DNA from: Spirochaetia bacterium
GTDB taxonomy: Bacteria > Spirochaetota > UBA4802 > UBA5550
Direction of reading: 5' to 3'
Length of the DNA stretch: 53,225 nt
NCBI GenBank assembly: GCA_009885955.1
Contig: VFJS01000074.1
Location: 1-53,225 of the forward strand
The notes below the pieces were generated by a model that ran no database searches, was not told the origin of the DNA, and saw only the letters and a list, made by a program, of their open reading frames with translations. The position numbers and the translations under genes are program-made. Below, piece after piece: positions 12,465 through 22,197 of this stretch (within the stretch, counting starts at the first letter, position 1; each line of letters begins with the position of its first letter).

Positions 12465-13103
12465 TTAAACAAGAATATCCGAAATAAATAAAAATTTATT
12501 TTCGCGCAGCCCGTGCTTCACATATTGTTTTTTTAAATAATTTATATGATTATTCATATCGATATCATCTTCAATAATATGATAATGAAATGATTTCTGC
12601 CATTTGAACTTCACAAAGCCGTGATTGTTTCCATATTTTATGAAAAATTCCGATCTCAGGTTTTGAATGTTTTCGATATGTTCCATGAACGGTCCACATC
12701 CCCCCACAAGCGACGATTCGAATCGTCGCTTGTGGGGGGACCGTCGCTTTTCGGGGGACTGGCGCAGTTGGGGAGATCGGATGAAATCGTTCCCTGAGAT
12801 CATATCATTACAATCCCTTGCGAAATTACGTTTTATAGTGCCCATGATATCAGAAAAAGTAAATCCCTCAGCCTGTTTCAGCAAAATATGGACATGATCA
12901 GGATTTATTTTATACCCGTACAATAAAAAACGATAAGGAGAATAAATGCTTCTTATTGTCCGGCAGTATTCCATGGTTTCAACGAACAAACGGCATACTA
13001 TATCATCACTGAAATACGGAACACGGTTACAGGTATTTGTTGTTATAAAATATACCGAATTCTTTCGATAATATCTTTTCTGGGAATTCCTGTGAAAGGG
13101 CAT
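12465..13103 (-). CDS. REP-associated tyrosine transposase (RAYT), copy 1
   Basis: This 212-residue Y1 transposase belongs to the IS200-like RAYT branch. It has YFITTNTCNRVPYF near the N-terminus, the HUH-type metal motif HVH (about H70/H72) in GYKINPDHVHILLKQ, and the catalytic Tyr near the C-terminus (about Y189 in HINYLKKQYVKHGL). RAYTs cut and join single-stranded DNA at palindromic repeats. ATG 13103 is used (GGAG upstream); a longer reading frame starts inside the upstream palindrome. Codons 122-135 are a 42-bp palindrome in frame, preceded by three 6-codon half-arm repeats. Copy 2 is at 14941-15567. No terminal repeats of an IS were found. Confidence 0.85.
   Translation of the reverse strand: MPFHRNSQKRYYRKNSVYFITTNTCNRVPYFSDDIVCRLFVETMEYCRTIRSIYSPYRFLLYGYKINPDHVHILLKQAEGFTFSDIMGTIKRNFARDCNDMISGNDFIRSPQLRQSPEKRRSPHKRRFESSLVGGCGPFMEHIENIQNLRSEFFIKYGNNHGFVKFKWQKSFHYHIIEDDIDMNNHINYLKKQYVKHGLRENKFLFISDILV
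12699..12740. repeat. TTCGAA palindrome A (42 nt, perfect), inside RAYT copy 1
   Basis: Two 21-nt arms meet at TTC|GAA (12719/12720). The core is GCGACGATTCGAATCGTCGC; the outer arms are a C-tract/CACAA and its complement. It is fully within the coding sequence and reads as HKRRFESSLVGG-type residues in the minus frame. Partial arm copies follow at 12741-12775. Confidence 0.95.
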
Positions 13104-13161: not shown

Positions 13162-13205
13162 TCCAAACCAAAGGCGACGATTCGAATCGTAGCCTTTGGT
13201 TTGGA
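13162..13205. repeat. TTCGAA palindrome B (44 nt, one mismatch), upstream of RAYT copy 1
   Basis: Two 22-nt arms centre on 13183/13184 with a single C/A mismatch. Outer arms are CCAAACCAAAG and its complement, unlike those of copy A. It lies 59 bp upstream of the RAYT start codon. Region 13206-13519 beyond it contains no convincing gene. A 17-nt stretch there (13364-13380) recurs at 15952-15968. Confidence 0.9.
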
Positions 13206-13519: not shown

Positions 13520-13705
13520 ATGCCAATCAGTGGAAAAGAGATGCTAAGGATTTACAAAAAAGCAGGATGGAAAGTTGAAAGAGTAAAAGGCAGCCATCAT
13601 TGCATGTCAAAGGGCAATGCAGTTGAAACAATTCCTGTATCCTCGAAAGACCTCACTAAAGGACTTGAACGAAAATTATTGAAGAAACTGGAGAAAACAA
13701 TATGA
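13520..13705 (+). CDS. hicA: HicA-type mRNA interferase toxin
   Basis: This 61-residue protein has the double-stranded RNA-binding-like HicA fold. MPISGKEMLRIYKKAGW comes first, followed by the catalytic-His region VKGSHHCMSK and the VPVSSKDLTKGLERKLLKK-like tail. HicA cleaves mRNA and is neutralised by HicB. The gene overlaps hicB by 4 bp (ATGA), typical of the module. It lies between the two RAYT copies. Confidence 0.9.
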   Translation: MPISGKEMLRIYKKAGWKVERVKGSHHCMSKGNAVETIPVSSKDLTKGLERKLLKKLEKTI

Positions 13706-14124
13706 AATATCATTTTAAAATACATAGAGATACCGATGGACTCTGGGCAGAGTGTGTTGAATTAGACGGCTGTCATACTCAGGCTGAAACAGAGAAAGAG
13801 CTTTATAAAAATATGAAAGAAGTCCTTGATCTTTATTTAGATGAACCTGACGAATCCATTAGAATAGCGCCGCTGCCTAAAATAAAATTAAAATCGAAAA
13901 ATATCGCTGAGATCGAGGTTAATCCAAAGATCGCATTTTCTCTATATATGAAGCATTTAAGGAATAAGCACAATTTTACCCAGCAGCAGCTTGCCGACAT
14001 GCTCGGTATGAAGAATATTTATAGTTATCAAAGACTTGAAAAAAAATCCAACCCGAGCCTTGACATGCTTGCAAGGGTTAAAAAAATATATCCCGAATTT
14101 AATTTTAATAAATTATTTGAATAA
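13702..14124 (+). CDS. hicB: HicB-type antitoxin with C-terminal HTH
   Basis: This 140-residue antitoxin has an N-terminal partially degraded RNase H-like HicB domain (residues 1-60: DGLWAECVELDGCHTQAETEKELYKNMKE). A C-terminal Xre-type helix-turn-helix follows (about 85-125: RNKHNFTQQQLADMLGMKN). The HTH would repress the hicAB promoter. It is coupled to hicA by a 4-bp overlap. Confidence 0.9.
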   Translation: MKYHFKIHRDTDGLWAECVELDGCHTQAETEKELYKNMKEVLDLYLDEPDESIRIAPLPKIKLKSKNIAEIEVNPKIAFSLYMKHLRNKHNFTQQQLADMLGMKNIYSYQRLEKKSNPSLDMLARVKKIYPEFNFNKLFE

Positions 14125-14183: not shown

Positions 14184-14579
14184 TTAGTTTATTTTGAATA
14201 AATTAAAAGTTATAAATTTCTTCATAAGATAAAAATGTTTATCAATTGTTAATAATGATATATTATTATTAACTATGTTTTGCAGAATAATTAAATCAGG
14301 TATTCCAACATTATTAATGCCATTCTTAATATTGATTACCTGGTAATTGATAATTTCATCCCAATCAATAACAATAGGAATATTTCTGATAGTTAACAGA
14401 ATATCGATTAACTTGAATTCCTTTTTAATTTTTAGATACGGCAGTAATTCCGACAGGATTAAATTATTAATGCATATTTGATTATTATCGATAAGACCGT
14501 CCACAACATCGGAATTGACTGATTTTGAGCCGCGGAAATACTCGACCCATACAGAAGTATCGATTAGTATAAAGTTCAT
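14184..14579 (-). CDS. vapC: VapC-type PIN-domain RNase toxin
   Basis: This 131-residue PIN protein has N-terminal FILIDTSVWVEYFRG with the first acidic residue (D7), a central acidic ILSELLPYL (E43), and C-terminal GIPDLIILQ and LLTIDKHF with further acidic ligands. It would be a Mg2+-dependent endoribonuclease. It is translationally coupled to vapB by a 4-bp overlap. Very AT-rich codon use suggests acquired DNA. Confidence 0.88.
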   Translation of the reverse strand: MNFILIDTSVWVEYFRGSKSVNSDVVDGLIDNNQICINNLILSELLPYLKIKKEFKLIDILLTIRNIPIVIDWDEIINYQVINIKNGINNVGIPDLIILQNIVNNNISLLTIDKHFYLMKKFITFNLFKIN

Positions 14580-14767
14580 CTGTTTCTTAATGTATCAAGA
14601 TCAATATTTATTTTTATTTTCCCATGGAAACTTTTAATATTTTTAACTTTTTCACGCTGAATCAGGCTTATCAAAGCTTCTTTAATAACGCCTGTTTTCG
14701 TTTTAATATTTGCAAGCTTCATAGCTTCTGATACAAGATTTTCCGGTAAATCAATTGTTGTTCTCAT
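14576..14767 (-). CDS. vapB: VapB-type ribbon-helix-helix antitoxin
   Basis: This 63-residue protein has the RHH motif MRTTIDLPENLVSEAMKLA followed by a basic C-terminus that would bind VapC. ATG 14767 has GAGG about 7 nt upstream. A longer frame back to 14830 crosses the operator and is unlikely. The palindromic operator immediately upstream supports autoregulation. Confidence 0.85.
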   Translation of the reverse strand: MRTTIDLPENLVSEAMKLANIKTKTGVIKEALISLIQREKVKNIKSFHGKIKINIDLDTLRNR

Positions 14768-14780
14768 GGCAATACCTCTA

Positions 14781-14810
14781 TATGCATAATATATAAAATT
14801 TATATGCATA
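14781..14810. promoter_or_regulatory. vapBC operator (paired TATGCATA sites)
   Basis: Two identical self-palindromic TATGCATA octamers lie at 14781-14788 and 14803-14810, just upstream of vapB. Their centres are 22 bp apart, two helical turns. A third TATGCAT lies near 14825. This fits RHH antitoxin autorepression. Confidence 0.65.
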
Positions 14811-14940
14811 GTCAAGTATATTTTATGCATTGAAACTAATTAATTCCCTAAAACAGACCAATAGGAATAATCACCCTCACCGTTCTCAAACCTGCGAAAA
14901 CAAGGTCATATTTACAAAAATGAACTATGCGGAAATAATA

Positions 14941-15567
14941 TTAAACAAGGATATCCGAAAAAAATAAAAATTTATTTTCGCGCAACCTGTGCTTCACATA
15001 TTGCCTTTTTAAATAATTTATATGATTATTCATATCGATATCATCTTCAATAATGTGATAATGAAATGATTTCTGCCATTTGAATGGGGCAAAGCCATGA
15101 TTGTTCCCATATTTCATGAAAAATTCCAATCTCAGGTTTTGAATGTTTTCGATATGTTCCATGAACGATCCCCATTCCTCCAAAAGCGACGATTCGAATC
15201 GTCGCTTTTGGAGGAATCGTCGCTTTTCGGGGAATCGTATGAAATCATTCCCTGAGATCAAATCATTATAATCCCGCGCGAAATTACGTTTAATTGATCC
15301 CATGATATTCGAAAAATTATGGAAAAGACGATGATTCGAATCATCGTCTTTTCCTTGTTTGATCAACATGTGAACATGGTCAGGATTTATTTTATACCCA
15401 TATAACATAAATTTTTTTATTATTCGGCAATATTCCATTGTCTCAACGAACAAACGGCATGTTATATCCTCATTGAAATACGGAACGCGGTTACAGGTAT
15501 TGGTTGTTATAAAATATGCTGAATTTTTACGATAATATCTTTTCTGTGAATTCCTGTGAAAGGGCAT
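14941..15567 (-). CDS. REP-associated tyrosine transposase (RAYT), copy 2
   Basis: This 208-residue paralogue of the 12465-13103 protein shares YFITTNTCNRVPYF, HVH (H64/H66) and the C-terminal catalytic Tyr (about Y185). The start has GGAG upstream. It differs by two in-frame changes. A palindrome insertion adds net 8 codons (GKDDDSNHRLFHN, residues 72-84) just after the HVH strand. It also lacks a six-residue stretch before GYKI. A second palindrome lies in frame at residues 117-131, at the same place as in copy 1. All active-site residues remain, so both could be active. Confidence 0.85.
   Translation of the reverse strand: MPFHRNSQKRYYRKNSAYFITTNTCNRVPYFNEDITCRLFVETMEYCRIIKKFMLYGYKINPDHVHMLIKQGKDDDSNHRLFHNFSNIMGSIKRNFARDYNDLISGNDFIRFPEKRRFLQKRRFESSLLEEWGSFMEHIENIQNLRLEFFMKYGNNHGFAPFKWQKSFHYHIIEDDIDMNNHINYLKRQYVKHRLRENKFLFFSDILV
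15174..15217. repeat. TTCGAA palindrome C (44 nt, perfect), inside RAYT copy 2
   Basis: Two perfect 22-nt arms centre on 15195/15196, with core GCGACGATTCGAATCGTCGC and outer arms of the ATTCCTCCAAAA type. It occupies the same place in the gene as palindrome A but the outer arms differ. A partial arm copy follows (15218-15233). Confidence 0.95.
15321..15354. repeat. TTCGAA palindrome D (34 nt, perfect), second insertion in RAYT copy 2
   Basis: Two 17-nt arms centre on 15337/15338. The core is GATGATTCGAATCATC, a variant in which changes on one arm are matched on the other. RAYT copy 1 has no palindrome here, so this is an in-frame insertion. Confidence 0.93.
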
Positions 15568-15699
15568 TTTATTCTCTCCATAAGATATATACGATTCACA
15601 GGGGGAGTTTTGGAAAATTTATATGAGATTATACATAAAAGTGTACCTGAAGAAGTGTGATGCCTATCTGAAAAACCAAAAACCACAACCCTCACCCTG

Positions 15700-15765
15700 A
15701 AAAGCGACATCTCACAACCCAAAAAAGTGACGTCTCACAACCCCGAAAGGCGACATCTCATCCCC
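15700..15765. repeat. three tandem degenerate palindrome arms
   Basis: Three consecutive 21-23-nt units, of the form AAAGYGACRTCTCACAACCC, lie at 15700-15720, 15721-15743 and 15744-15765. They lead directly into palindrome E. Each looks like one arm whose second half was never copied. The surrounding region 15568-16043 has no supported gene. Confidence 0.7.
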
Positions 15766-15798
15766 AAAAGCGACGATTCGAATCGTCGCTTTTGGGGA
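15761..15798. repeat. TTCGAA palindrome E (38 nt, perfect)
   Basis: Two 19-nt arms centre on 15779/15780, with core GCGACGATTCGAATCGTCGC and TCCCCAAAA outer arms. It is intergenic, downstream of the tandem arm array. Confidence 0.95.
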
Positions 15799-16043: not shown

Positions 16044-19000
16044 TTAAGGCGACTGTGTATTGACGGTAGCATTTGTATTGGTAACCGTAACAGTTGTTGT
16101 CGTTGTGGTCATAGTTGTGATATTTGTTACAGTGGCCGAAGTAGTAGTTATTGTAGCGCTTGTGTCAGTAACAGTAGCGTTTGTTGTTGTACCAAAGGGT
16201 GGGCATGAACCGTCAGATTTTGTTTTTATTATCCAGTTGTCCCAACCCCCTGCACCAAATCCCTGTGTCTGCCCATTTACTATGATGCCTCCATCATTTG
16301 TAATAGTCATTGAAGGTAATTGGGAAACACTTTCTAATGATGAACTGTCATATCTTTTTTGCCAAATAATTGAACCATCGTAATCTATTTTAATAAACCA
16401 TAAATCAGCATTTGCACTAAATGATCCTGTAGTACCAAAAAGAATTAACCCGCTATTATCCTTTACCATACCACCTGGATAGTCAGCATTCGCACCGCCA
16501 TATGCTTTTTGCCATAAAACAGTGCCATTTGTATCAAATTTTGTGACCCAATAATCCTGATTTCCTGTTCCAGGATTGTTACTACTACTTAATGCCAAAT
16601 ATTTGCCGTCCGGACTTTCCTCAATTGACTGACCAGTATCAGCTGAACTTGAGAAACCAAGGGCTTTTTCCCAGAGAACATTGCCATTGCTGTCCAATTT
16701 TAAAACCCACTGTTCCCATTCAGGCCCGGAACCGCCGGCATTATAATACCCGGTTACAATTAAATTATTATCACTTGTTTCTTTAATATCACGGATACTT
16801 TCACTTCCTGAATTTATACCATAAGCTTTTGCCCAGAGAATATTACCATCATTGTCAATTTTTATAATCAACCCATCATTACCATAATATCCACCGCCAA
16901 CGCCAAATGAGGCGGTAAGTCCTCCAAGTATATATCCATCATCAGATGTCTTTATTATTTTATACACGCCATCATGATTAGCGCCCCCATATGCCTTTTG
17001 CCATATGATATTACCGCTTGAATCTAATTTAATCAGGAGAATATCCGTTAAACCTGCTCCGTAGTAGTTTGTGCTGCCAGCAATTAGACTTCCATTATTT
17101 GAGGTTGAAACAATTGATGTAAAATATTCTTGACCTGTCCCTCCAAATGCTTTCTCCCATAAAATATTGCCGTTAAGATCTGTTTTAATCAACCAGCCAT
17201 CTTCATCACCAGCGCCGAACGAATACGTTCCTCCGCCTATAAGATATGAAGAATCTGCGTTTTGCATAATAAACTCACCTGCATCGGCAAGACTCCCCCC
17301 ATAGGTCTTTGCCCATGAAATAGTATTCGGCTCATTATAGAGCGCTTGGATTTCTGAAGCTGAAAGGGCTCGGTTGTAGATGCGGACGTCATCGATTTTG
17401 CCATAAAAAGATTTATCAGTACCTGGAGTTAAATCTCTATTACGCTCACCAATATCATATAGAGTTGCATTAAATGTCCTGGAAACACTACTAAGTAGTT
17501 CCCATTGAAAAGTATTGTTTATATACAATTTTGCTTTTCGAGTTGATTCATCATATACTAAAATAACATGATGCCACACTCCATCATTTACACTCATAGT
17601 ACTTTCTTCCCATGCATTTGGAAAATCCCAATGACCAGGACCAACCACTTTGCCATTTTGAACAGCAAGGTAATAATAGCTTCTAAAATCTGAAAAGTAT
17701 CTGAAATTTGAATTAGCTATTTCAGATGTATTTATCCATACTGAAATAGTAAATGAAGATATTGAAATTGATGTCCAATCTGATTGAATGTAATCATCCA
17801 GTCCATCAAAATTATAAGCACTACTAGTATTTCCGAACCTGTCTGTTGTCAATGCCGGATCGCTGGCATCCGTTCCGCTGGCCGTTCCTAATTGTCCATG
17901 ATTCCCACTCCCGCTTGAGTCACTGGCATCACCATTGAATAGATATTCTGCCACCAGACCATTCCTTGGAATTCCAGAATTTTGTAAAACAGTCAGGATA
18001 AACATCTTCGTATCATTGGCCAGTCCTTTACTAATAGTTGCGGTTAAAGTGGATGAGGCATTACCAGAACCGGACACAGGCCTTGTCACAACGCCGCTGT
18101 TGGAAATTACGGCTGTATTACTTGAAACCCACGATATCGTTGTCCCGCTTGACCCAGCTATTGCAAGTGTTACATTCTGTGTTACGCTCCCGGCGCTGTC
18201 GCTCCCGCCGTAGATAATAACCAGAGCTGTCTTATCCGCTGCCACTGCTCCTGCATCGGTCTGCGGCGACTCTAACACTGTCAGAACAAACTGCTTCGTA
18301 TCATTGGCAAGCCCCTTTGTTATGGTTGCCGTTATCGTCGACGACGCATTTCCGGAACCATAGGCCGGGCGAGTTACTATACCGGCGTTGCTGATAACTC
18401 CCGTGTTGCTTGAGCTCCAGCTTATGGTTGTCCCGCTTGAACCCACGGTTTGCAGGGTTACATTCTGTGTCACGTTCCCTGCGCTGTCGCTTCCTCCGTA
18501 GATGATCACCAGGGCGGCCTTGTCCGCTGCAACTGATCCCGCATCGCTCTGTGGGTTCTCGATAACCGTGAGGATAAATTGCTTCGTGTCATTTGAAAGC
18601 CCCTTGGATATTGTCGCGGTCATGGTAATGGATGCGTTACCGGAGCCGTAGGCCGGTCGTGTCACCGCACCATTTGCCGCGATTATTCCCGTATTGGATG
18701 ATCCCCATGCAATGGTGGTCCCGCTTGAACCGGCAGTCGGCAGGGTTACATTCTGTGTTACGCTCGCGGAACTGTCGCCGCTTCCATAGGTAATGACCAG
18801 GGCCGATTTGTCCGCAGCAACTGATCCGGCATCGGTCGATGGGGCTTGTATAATGGTAATGATGAATATTTTCGTATCAAAGGTGCTCCCCTTTGATATG
18901 GTAGCGGTCAGGGTAACCGTTGTGTTACCGGTGCCATAAGCCGGCCGTGTAACCGTACCGTTTATCGCGATTATCGTTGAATTCGATGAAAGCCATGTTA

Positions 19001-19250: not shown

Positions 19251-19327
19251 ATCCTCTCTCCCTTAAAATGAATATCATCATAAACTAAAATACAGTTACT
19301 CACCCCTCTCTAAAAACGACGTCTCCC

Positions 19328-19367
19328 CCCCTGAAAAGCGACGATTCGAATCGTCGCTTTTCAGGGG
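19328..19367. repeat. TTCGAA palindrome F (40 nt, perfect)
   Basis: Two 20-nt arms centre on 19347/19348, with core GCGACGATTCGAATCGTCGC and outer arms CCCCTGAAAA. It is intergenic between the CsgG-like gene and the large lipoprotein gene. Arm-like fragments flank it at 19312-19327 and 19370-19385. Confidence 0.95.
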
Positions 19368-22155: not shown

Positions 22156-22197
22156 GGTGAATAAAAGCTACGATTCGAATCGTAGCTTTTATTCACC
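22156..22197. repeat. TTCGAA palindrome G (42 nt, perfect)
   Basis: Two 21-nt arms centre on 22176/22177. The core is the compensated variant GCTACGATTCGAATCGTAGC, with outer arms GGTGAATAAAA. It lies in the divergent gap between the sigma gene and the DUF1015 gene. The rest of 22011-22431 shows no gene. Confidence 0.95.

Follow-up and report, generated by a model that had tools for sequence, protein, structure and literature searches.

The window analysed here, a stretch of 53,225 nucleotides from a Spirochaetia bacterium (contig VFJS01000074.1), contains two paralogous genes for Y1 (REP-associated) transposases, both on the minus strand: copy 2 (14941..15567; 208 aa; PF01797, E 7e-05) and copy 1 (12465..13103; 212 aa), which is 83% identical to it. 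The HUH motif (HVH, at residues 64-66 of copy 2) and the single catalytic tyrosine (Tyr185) are present in both. Against the NF047646 profile (REP_Tyr_transpos), copy 2 scores 71.7 bits and copy 1 74.2, both below the curated cut-off of 80, which among the six proteins scored is passed only by that of locus L111 (82.7). The AlphaFold2 model of copy 2 (pLDDT 87.9) has as its best Foldseek match 4er8_A (E 2.9e-06, with a TM of only 0.44/0.55); 4er8, the E. coli TnpAREP with its REP hairpin, is the top match by sequence as well as by fold. Outside the palindrome segments described below, the two copies differ by a dS of 0.44 and a dN of 0.061 over 160 codons, a ratio of 0.138, and both have thus been kept as proteins. 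Eight other PF01797 places are found in the 4.77-Mb genome (G000).

Two toxin-antitoxin-like pairs, HicA/HicB-like and VapC/VapB-like by reading of the sequence, lie between the transposases (13520-14124 and 14184-14830), and upstream of copy 2 relative to its transcription is a large gene for a repeat-rich protein (16483-17196 and 18105-18968), which contains 59-nt repeats as well as three of 288 nt.

A scan of all 53 kb of the window for palindromes with a half-score of at least 11 finds exactly seven, every one a member of the same family; they are given here without strand. One stands at equivalent places inside each transposase gene: 44 nt in copy 2 (15174..15217, centre 15195, encoding ...KRRFESSL...) and 42 nt in copy 1 (12699..12740, centre 12719). 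Others lie upstream of copy 1 (13162..13205, 44 nt with one mismatch; absent upstream of copy 2, a net difference of +44 nt), upstream of copy 2 (15761..15798, 38 nt) and in further intergenic positions (19328..19367, 40 nt; 22156..22197, 42 nt, with the variant core GCTACGATTC). The seventh, at 15321..15354, is a second palindrome within copy 2. Each family copy is a palindrome of 34-44 nt, whose inner part is common to the copies and whose outer arms are largely unrelated from copy to copy, yet paired within each. The core GATTCGAATC occurs seven times in G000, every time in the window at 12.7-22.2 kb, the seven places all falling within 10 kb around the two transposase genes; this count refers to the GATTCGAATC core, and degenerate or differently centred REPs elsewhere would escape it. 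GATGATTC variants are also found in genomes G044, G045, G066 and G079.

Degenerate half-elements with the consensus CCCnAAAAGCGACrTCTC accompany the palindromes: three of them, in tandem with a 23-nt period, adjoin the palindrome at 15761 (15694..15760, plus strand), and others stand at 19312-19325 and just after 12740 and 15217. Copies with an 18-nt period within both transposase genes encode repeated PEKRR-like peptides.

The palindrome at 15321..15354 (GGAAAAGACGATGATTC|GAATCATCGTCTTTTCC, 17 of 17 pairs) is perfect, carries the variant GACGATGATTC and encodes GKDDDSNHRLF in the loop behind the HVH strand. The preliminary description of this DNA had reported it as present in copy 2 and absent from copy 1, in a net in-frame insertion of 24 nt directly after that strand, and both points are borne out by codon alignment (+24 nt, 8 aa). 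The further statement that the insertion contains the palindrome needs correction: since the net gain is 24 nt, the 34-nt palindrome was not wholly inserted, and about 10 nt of it would be older gene or replaced sequence. In the model of copy 2, the insertion falls in the loop between the strand at 64-70 and the helix at 85-105 (block pLDDT 70). No plain target duplication was recognised in copy 2 in the paralogue alignment, in which boundaries within the arms are not resolvable.

Whether the difference is a gain in copy 2 or a loss from copy 1 can be read from the relatives, as the earlier account had itself suggested for outgroup RAYTs. In an alignment of 38 proteins (A2; L130, L132, L141, L146 and L147 were omitted as short, interrupted or N-rich), the 8-aa insertion occurs in copy 2 only and is missing from copy 1 and 36 further relatives. 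Because 37 of the 38 proteins lack it, the palindrome is, by sequence comparison, a gain in copy 2, and a loss in copy 1 is ruled out. That no mobile element is involved at all, the palindrome having been gained or lost by chance in one of the copies or being an assembly artefact, is hardly credible: the region is a single contig of one assembly, which would suit an artefact, but the reading frame is intact, the core is found at six other places and the insertion is private to one protein. A chance palindrome is likewise ruled out, since none as long was found in 20 first-order Markov resamples, where the longest half, with mismatches allowed, was 15.

The conserved palindrome in the linker of both copies (at 12719 and 15195) has a much wider distribution than the one at 15321. 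It is carried at the same linker by 33 of the 38 full-length relatives in A2, the exceptions being L109, L113, L114, L134 and L136; in the last four a look-alike peptide remains despite the missing palindrome. When the 41 loci from named genomes are taken with both copies in the window, an in-gene palindrome is present in 34 of 43 genes; its position is 0.54-0.72 of the matched length, setting aside the additional palindrome of copy 2 and two rows for L132, which is N-rich. In a separate phylum search, 9 of 19 loci (L092, L088, L095, L097, L105, L099, L100, L101 and L103, some of these genes being also in A2) had no in-gene palindrome at the threshold used. The general form is an arm, then GAAGGCGnnNNNN, then the mirror of both. 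By record title the hosts include Spirochaetes, Brevinematales, Margulisiibacteriota, Saganbacteria, Peribacteraceae and Gracilibacteria, as well as Falkowbacteria, Parcubacteria, Cloacimonadota, Marinimicrobia, Dojkabacteria and Ignavibacteriae, among others; those with the linker palindrome range from Spirochaetota to Patescibacteria and Cloacimonadota, and the host taxa as a whole we take to represent about six phyla. Judged from this comparison, the linker palindrome is old.

What has been conserved seems to be the DNA and not the peptide, since in-gene palindromes are found in all three frames: 29 of 35 have a common reading frame, and 4 and 2 are in the other two, the conserved palindromes of copies 1 and 2 belonging to the group of 4. 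In the model of copy 2 the block pLDDT of the region holding the older palindrome is 51-60, and between the two copies the linker shows a dS of 0.105 and a dN of 0.165 over 27 codons. Furthermore, 18 of 23 flanking palindromes have the same 5-nt centre as the in-gene one, as against a mean of 2.7 and a maximum of 9 in 2000 shuffles; on these matching centres, transposase and palindrome appear to co-vary, the enzyme and its hairpin changing together. H64 is invariant in the 38 proteins and Y185 nearly so. The second histidine of the HUH motif is replaced in seven (L118, L122, L123, L124, L125, L128 and L145, with DHLN, DHIN, DHVY or NHCQ), so that the members need not all be active cutters, a point that speaks against one active mechanism throughout; these seven still hold the in-gene palindrome.

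Palindromes tolerated in coding sequence are already known, both as in-frame REPs in tnpAREP genes of subclass 2.4 and as intragenic REPs and Rickettsia palindromic elements (PMC6006769, PMC3733652). In subclass 2.4, as described by Quentin et al. (2018, PMC6006769), REPs are inserted in frame in the transposase gene between the HuH and Tyr motifs, and the HUH/Y1 transposase, the cognate palindromes on both sides and the in-frame REPs are all shared with the present genes; the 15321 palindrome appears to sit in the same gap, between beta3 and alphaC, as insertions described there. In contrast, the motifs here are DHVH ... WQ ... Y-x-x-x-Q/N followed by KH, and not the NH[IFV]H ... YIxNNP of that description, and the conserved palindrome is in a later linker. 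The Y---NP motif by which PMC6006769 defines class 2 and subclass 2.4 is replaced by YLKRQ in copy 2 and by Y-x-x-x-Q or N in the relatives. Moreover, the GT[AG]G foot of GTAG-type REPs was found in none of the seven window palindromes and in 4 of 33 in-gene palindromes of relatives. By motif likeness only, the genes resemble TnpAY1 subclass 1.2 (DH[IV]H, WQ and YIKNQKEHH, against DHVH, WQ and YLKRQYVKH in copy 2); however, in the account of PMC6006769 this subclass is given as being without REPs, whereas here palindromes surround and interrupt the gene.

The preliminary description had compared the inserted palindrome with Rickettsia palindromic elements. The comparison stands as one of style, in that in-frame palindromes are tolerated in genes (Di Nocera et al. 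2013, PMC3733652), but REP palindromes with their own Y1 transposase are the better class: the intragenic repeats of R. conorii, RPE-4 and RPE-6, are in that description grouped with CGTC repeats, with no dedicated transposase. Perfect palindromes in coding genes are also described in the mitochondria of Nematomorpha, which differ in being animal organelles and in that no transposase family came up with them in the literature search (PMC6649704). The claim that coding sequence tolerates the palindrome is supported by the purifying selection on copy 2 (dN/dS 0.14 outside its two palindrome segments). The palindrome belongs to a family with seven places in the genome; that it moves is deduced from comparison and not observed.

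The origin of the outer arms was examined at 19 sites: SET1-SET4, S2-S8, G040:5250, L193/L201, L195/L199, L196/L203, L198/L209, L197, the site upstream of copy 1 and copy 2 itself, the genomes compared being mostly metagenome bins. Fourteen were uninformative, since the palindrome was present in all species, the flanks could not be aligned or neither arm was recognised. Four (S2, S3, L196/L203 and L198/L209) were informative at the nucleotide level; they all belong to a single other genus within the order (G023, G032, G040, G044 and G045). In each of the four, exactly one arm is original flank, of which the other arm is an inverted copy; both arms were native at none of the 19.

The clearest case is L198/L209. 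In the empty site of a fourth species (L209), CGCGGGGCGCACGGTG stands between the gene end and the next start codon; L208 has the same 16-nt CGCGGGGCGCACGGTG, followed there by the core and then by CACCGTGCGCCCCGCG, a right arm missing from L209. Thus in three species (L198, L225 and L208) the left arm is native, its 16 nt stopping exactly at the start of the core, and the right arm is its inverted copy. L209 could in principle be a deletion instead, and a further 19 nt next to the palindrome are missing from its site. Elsewhere, the left arm of L027 holds a gene end, AAGTAGC, common to three other species, the right arm being a new mirror; at L030:1741, compared with L164, it is the right arm that is native; and the right arm of L203 is the mirror of a left flank that it has in common with L196; here both species have the palindrome, and the evidence is that common flank and not an empty site.

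Copy 2 is weakly informative on this point, by way of a protein profile of 36 relatives. Removal of 15323..15346 (minus strand) is the best-scoring phase of all 24-nt phases and gives an empty site reading QGKDHNFS; the score rises from 209.7 bits for the present gene to 223.3, and neighbouring phases are within 1-2 bits. Relative L105 reads TGKDINYS at the matching site. The segment so defined would consist of 16 nt of core and 8 nt mirroring GGAAAAGA, the flank on the left. Other empty sites score less in the same profile: 220.8-221.4 bits for QGKFHNFS/QGNFHNFS and 218.2 for QRLFHNFS. The best phase is some 2 bits above a native GGAAA/TTTCC, a small inverted repeat that copy 2 could have held before the insertion (220.8-221.4 bits) and that would suit a different view, in which the element prefers the loops of small inverted repeats or terminators and the outer arms existed beforehand. 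Insertion into existing hairpins would also be in keeping with the bulges between outer arms and core in the L193 and L203 palindromes, and with L155, which has an imperfect inverted repeat at the position of the core in L031. We nevertheless regard pre-existing arms as improbable, given that only one arm is native at the four informative sites and that the net gain upstream of copy 1 is the full 44 nt, arms included.

The reading that we favour, with somewhat better than even confidence and on comparative grounds, is that a mobile REP-like hairpin entered copy 2, one of the genes for its own Y1 transposase, by an in-frame insertion that followed the divergence of the copies and involved hairpin-primed copying of the flank. 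It builds on direct observations, namely the family and its clustering, the matching centres, the gain seen in copy 2 and the four sites of related genomes at which the native arm is on one side only; this one-sidedness is the reason why copying of the flank is proposed. The transposase would cut single-stranded DNA and join the hairpin core to the 3' end of the target; the folded-back 3' end of the hairpin would then prime a short synthesis templated by the adjacent strand of the target, and ligation of the product would follow. Cleavage and joining of single-stranded hairpins by HUH enzymes are knowledge of the family, and these enzymes leave a 3'-OH able to prime synthesis (PMC8266576). The outcome would be a perfect palindrome with the element as its inner part and, as outer arms, target sequence and an inverted copy of it. 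Applied to copy 2, this would make GGAAAAGA (Gly-Lys-Asp) the native left arm and would divide the 24-nt gain into 16 nt of core and 8 nt of inverted flank; the older linker palindrome would act as a master copy travelling with the gene. More generally, we suggest, tentatively and at somewhat less than an even chance, that REPs of this subfamily insert by hairpin-primed copying, with an inverted instead of a direct target duplication, and that the in-frame REP is a built-in master copy kept across what we take to be about six phyla.

The main rival is template switching after insertion: the core would transpose without copying its flank, and the arms would be perfected later by replication slippage in the hairpin, one arm being rewritten from the other, so that the palindrome would grow outward and remain perfect. 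Its support comes from palindromes at orthologous sites (SET1-SET3, S4 and S5), where the core is constant and the arms differ yet still pair; from a stepwise change C:G -> T:G -> T:A across L208, L225 and L198, which favours later rewriting; and from the linker palindromes of copies 1 and 2, where three differing arm pairs are paired in both copies and the inner 12 pairs are identical, two more differing pairs lying past the end of the copy 1 palindrome and being unpaired in copy 1. For the 16-nt native arm of L198/L209, which ends exactly at the core, a single copying step is simpler than template switching, and as a full account we consider the rival rather unlikely; later correction of arms probably also happens. 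Part of the arm pairing may therefore post-date insertion, and hairpin selection and arm-to-arm copying at replication would both explain paired change.

Insertion with inverted copying of the flank was not found for REPs in the literature searched, which comprised open-access papers and is no proof of absence from print, and PMC8266576 describes the way in which REPs spread as unresolved. As an insertion signature, one native arm and one inverted copy would open the mechanism to tests on sequence data and in vitro, and a recognition hairpin in the transposase reading frame over several phyla would hold enzyme and substrate together. Should the insertion prove ordinary, it would still add to the in-gene REPs of subclass 2.4 those of another Y1 group and of Spirochaetota, Patescibacteria and Cloacimonadota.

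Finally, several family palindromes outside the window lie in other settings. Some old copies between convergent genes look like two-way terminators (SET1). At L033:3908, L049:4050 and L051:4215, in three species, an orthologous palindrome lies between convergent genes and has A-rich and T-rich arms in the manner of such a terminator. In one spirochaete genus, family palindromes lie in frame in two conserved unrelated genes (L030:4089, L030:6003, L159, L161 and L169), which by their look are presumably CoA-dehydratase activases; their arms differ per species, and that of L161 is nested (62 nt). The palindrome at L038:2074, at a gene end, seems to replace the usual stop and to lengthen the protein, and L194 (G023:C37:3342-3801), beside a palindrome, resembles a stretch of G032:C42 that holds a subfamily transposase, and is perhaps a remnant gene.
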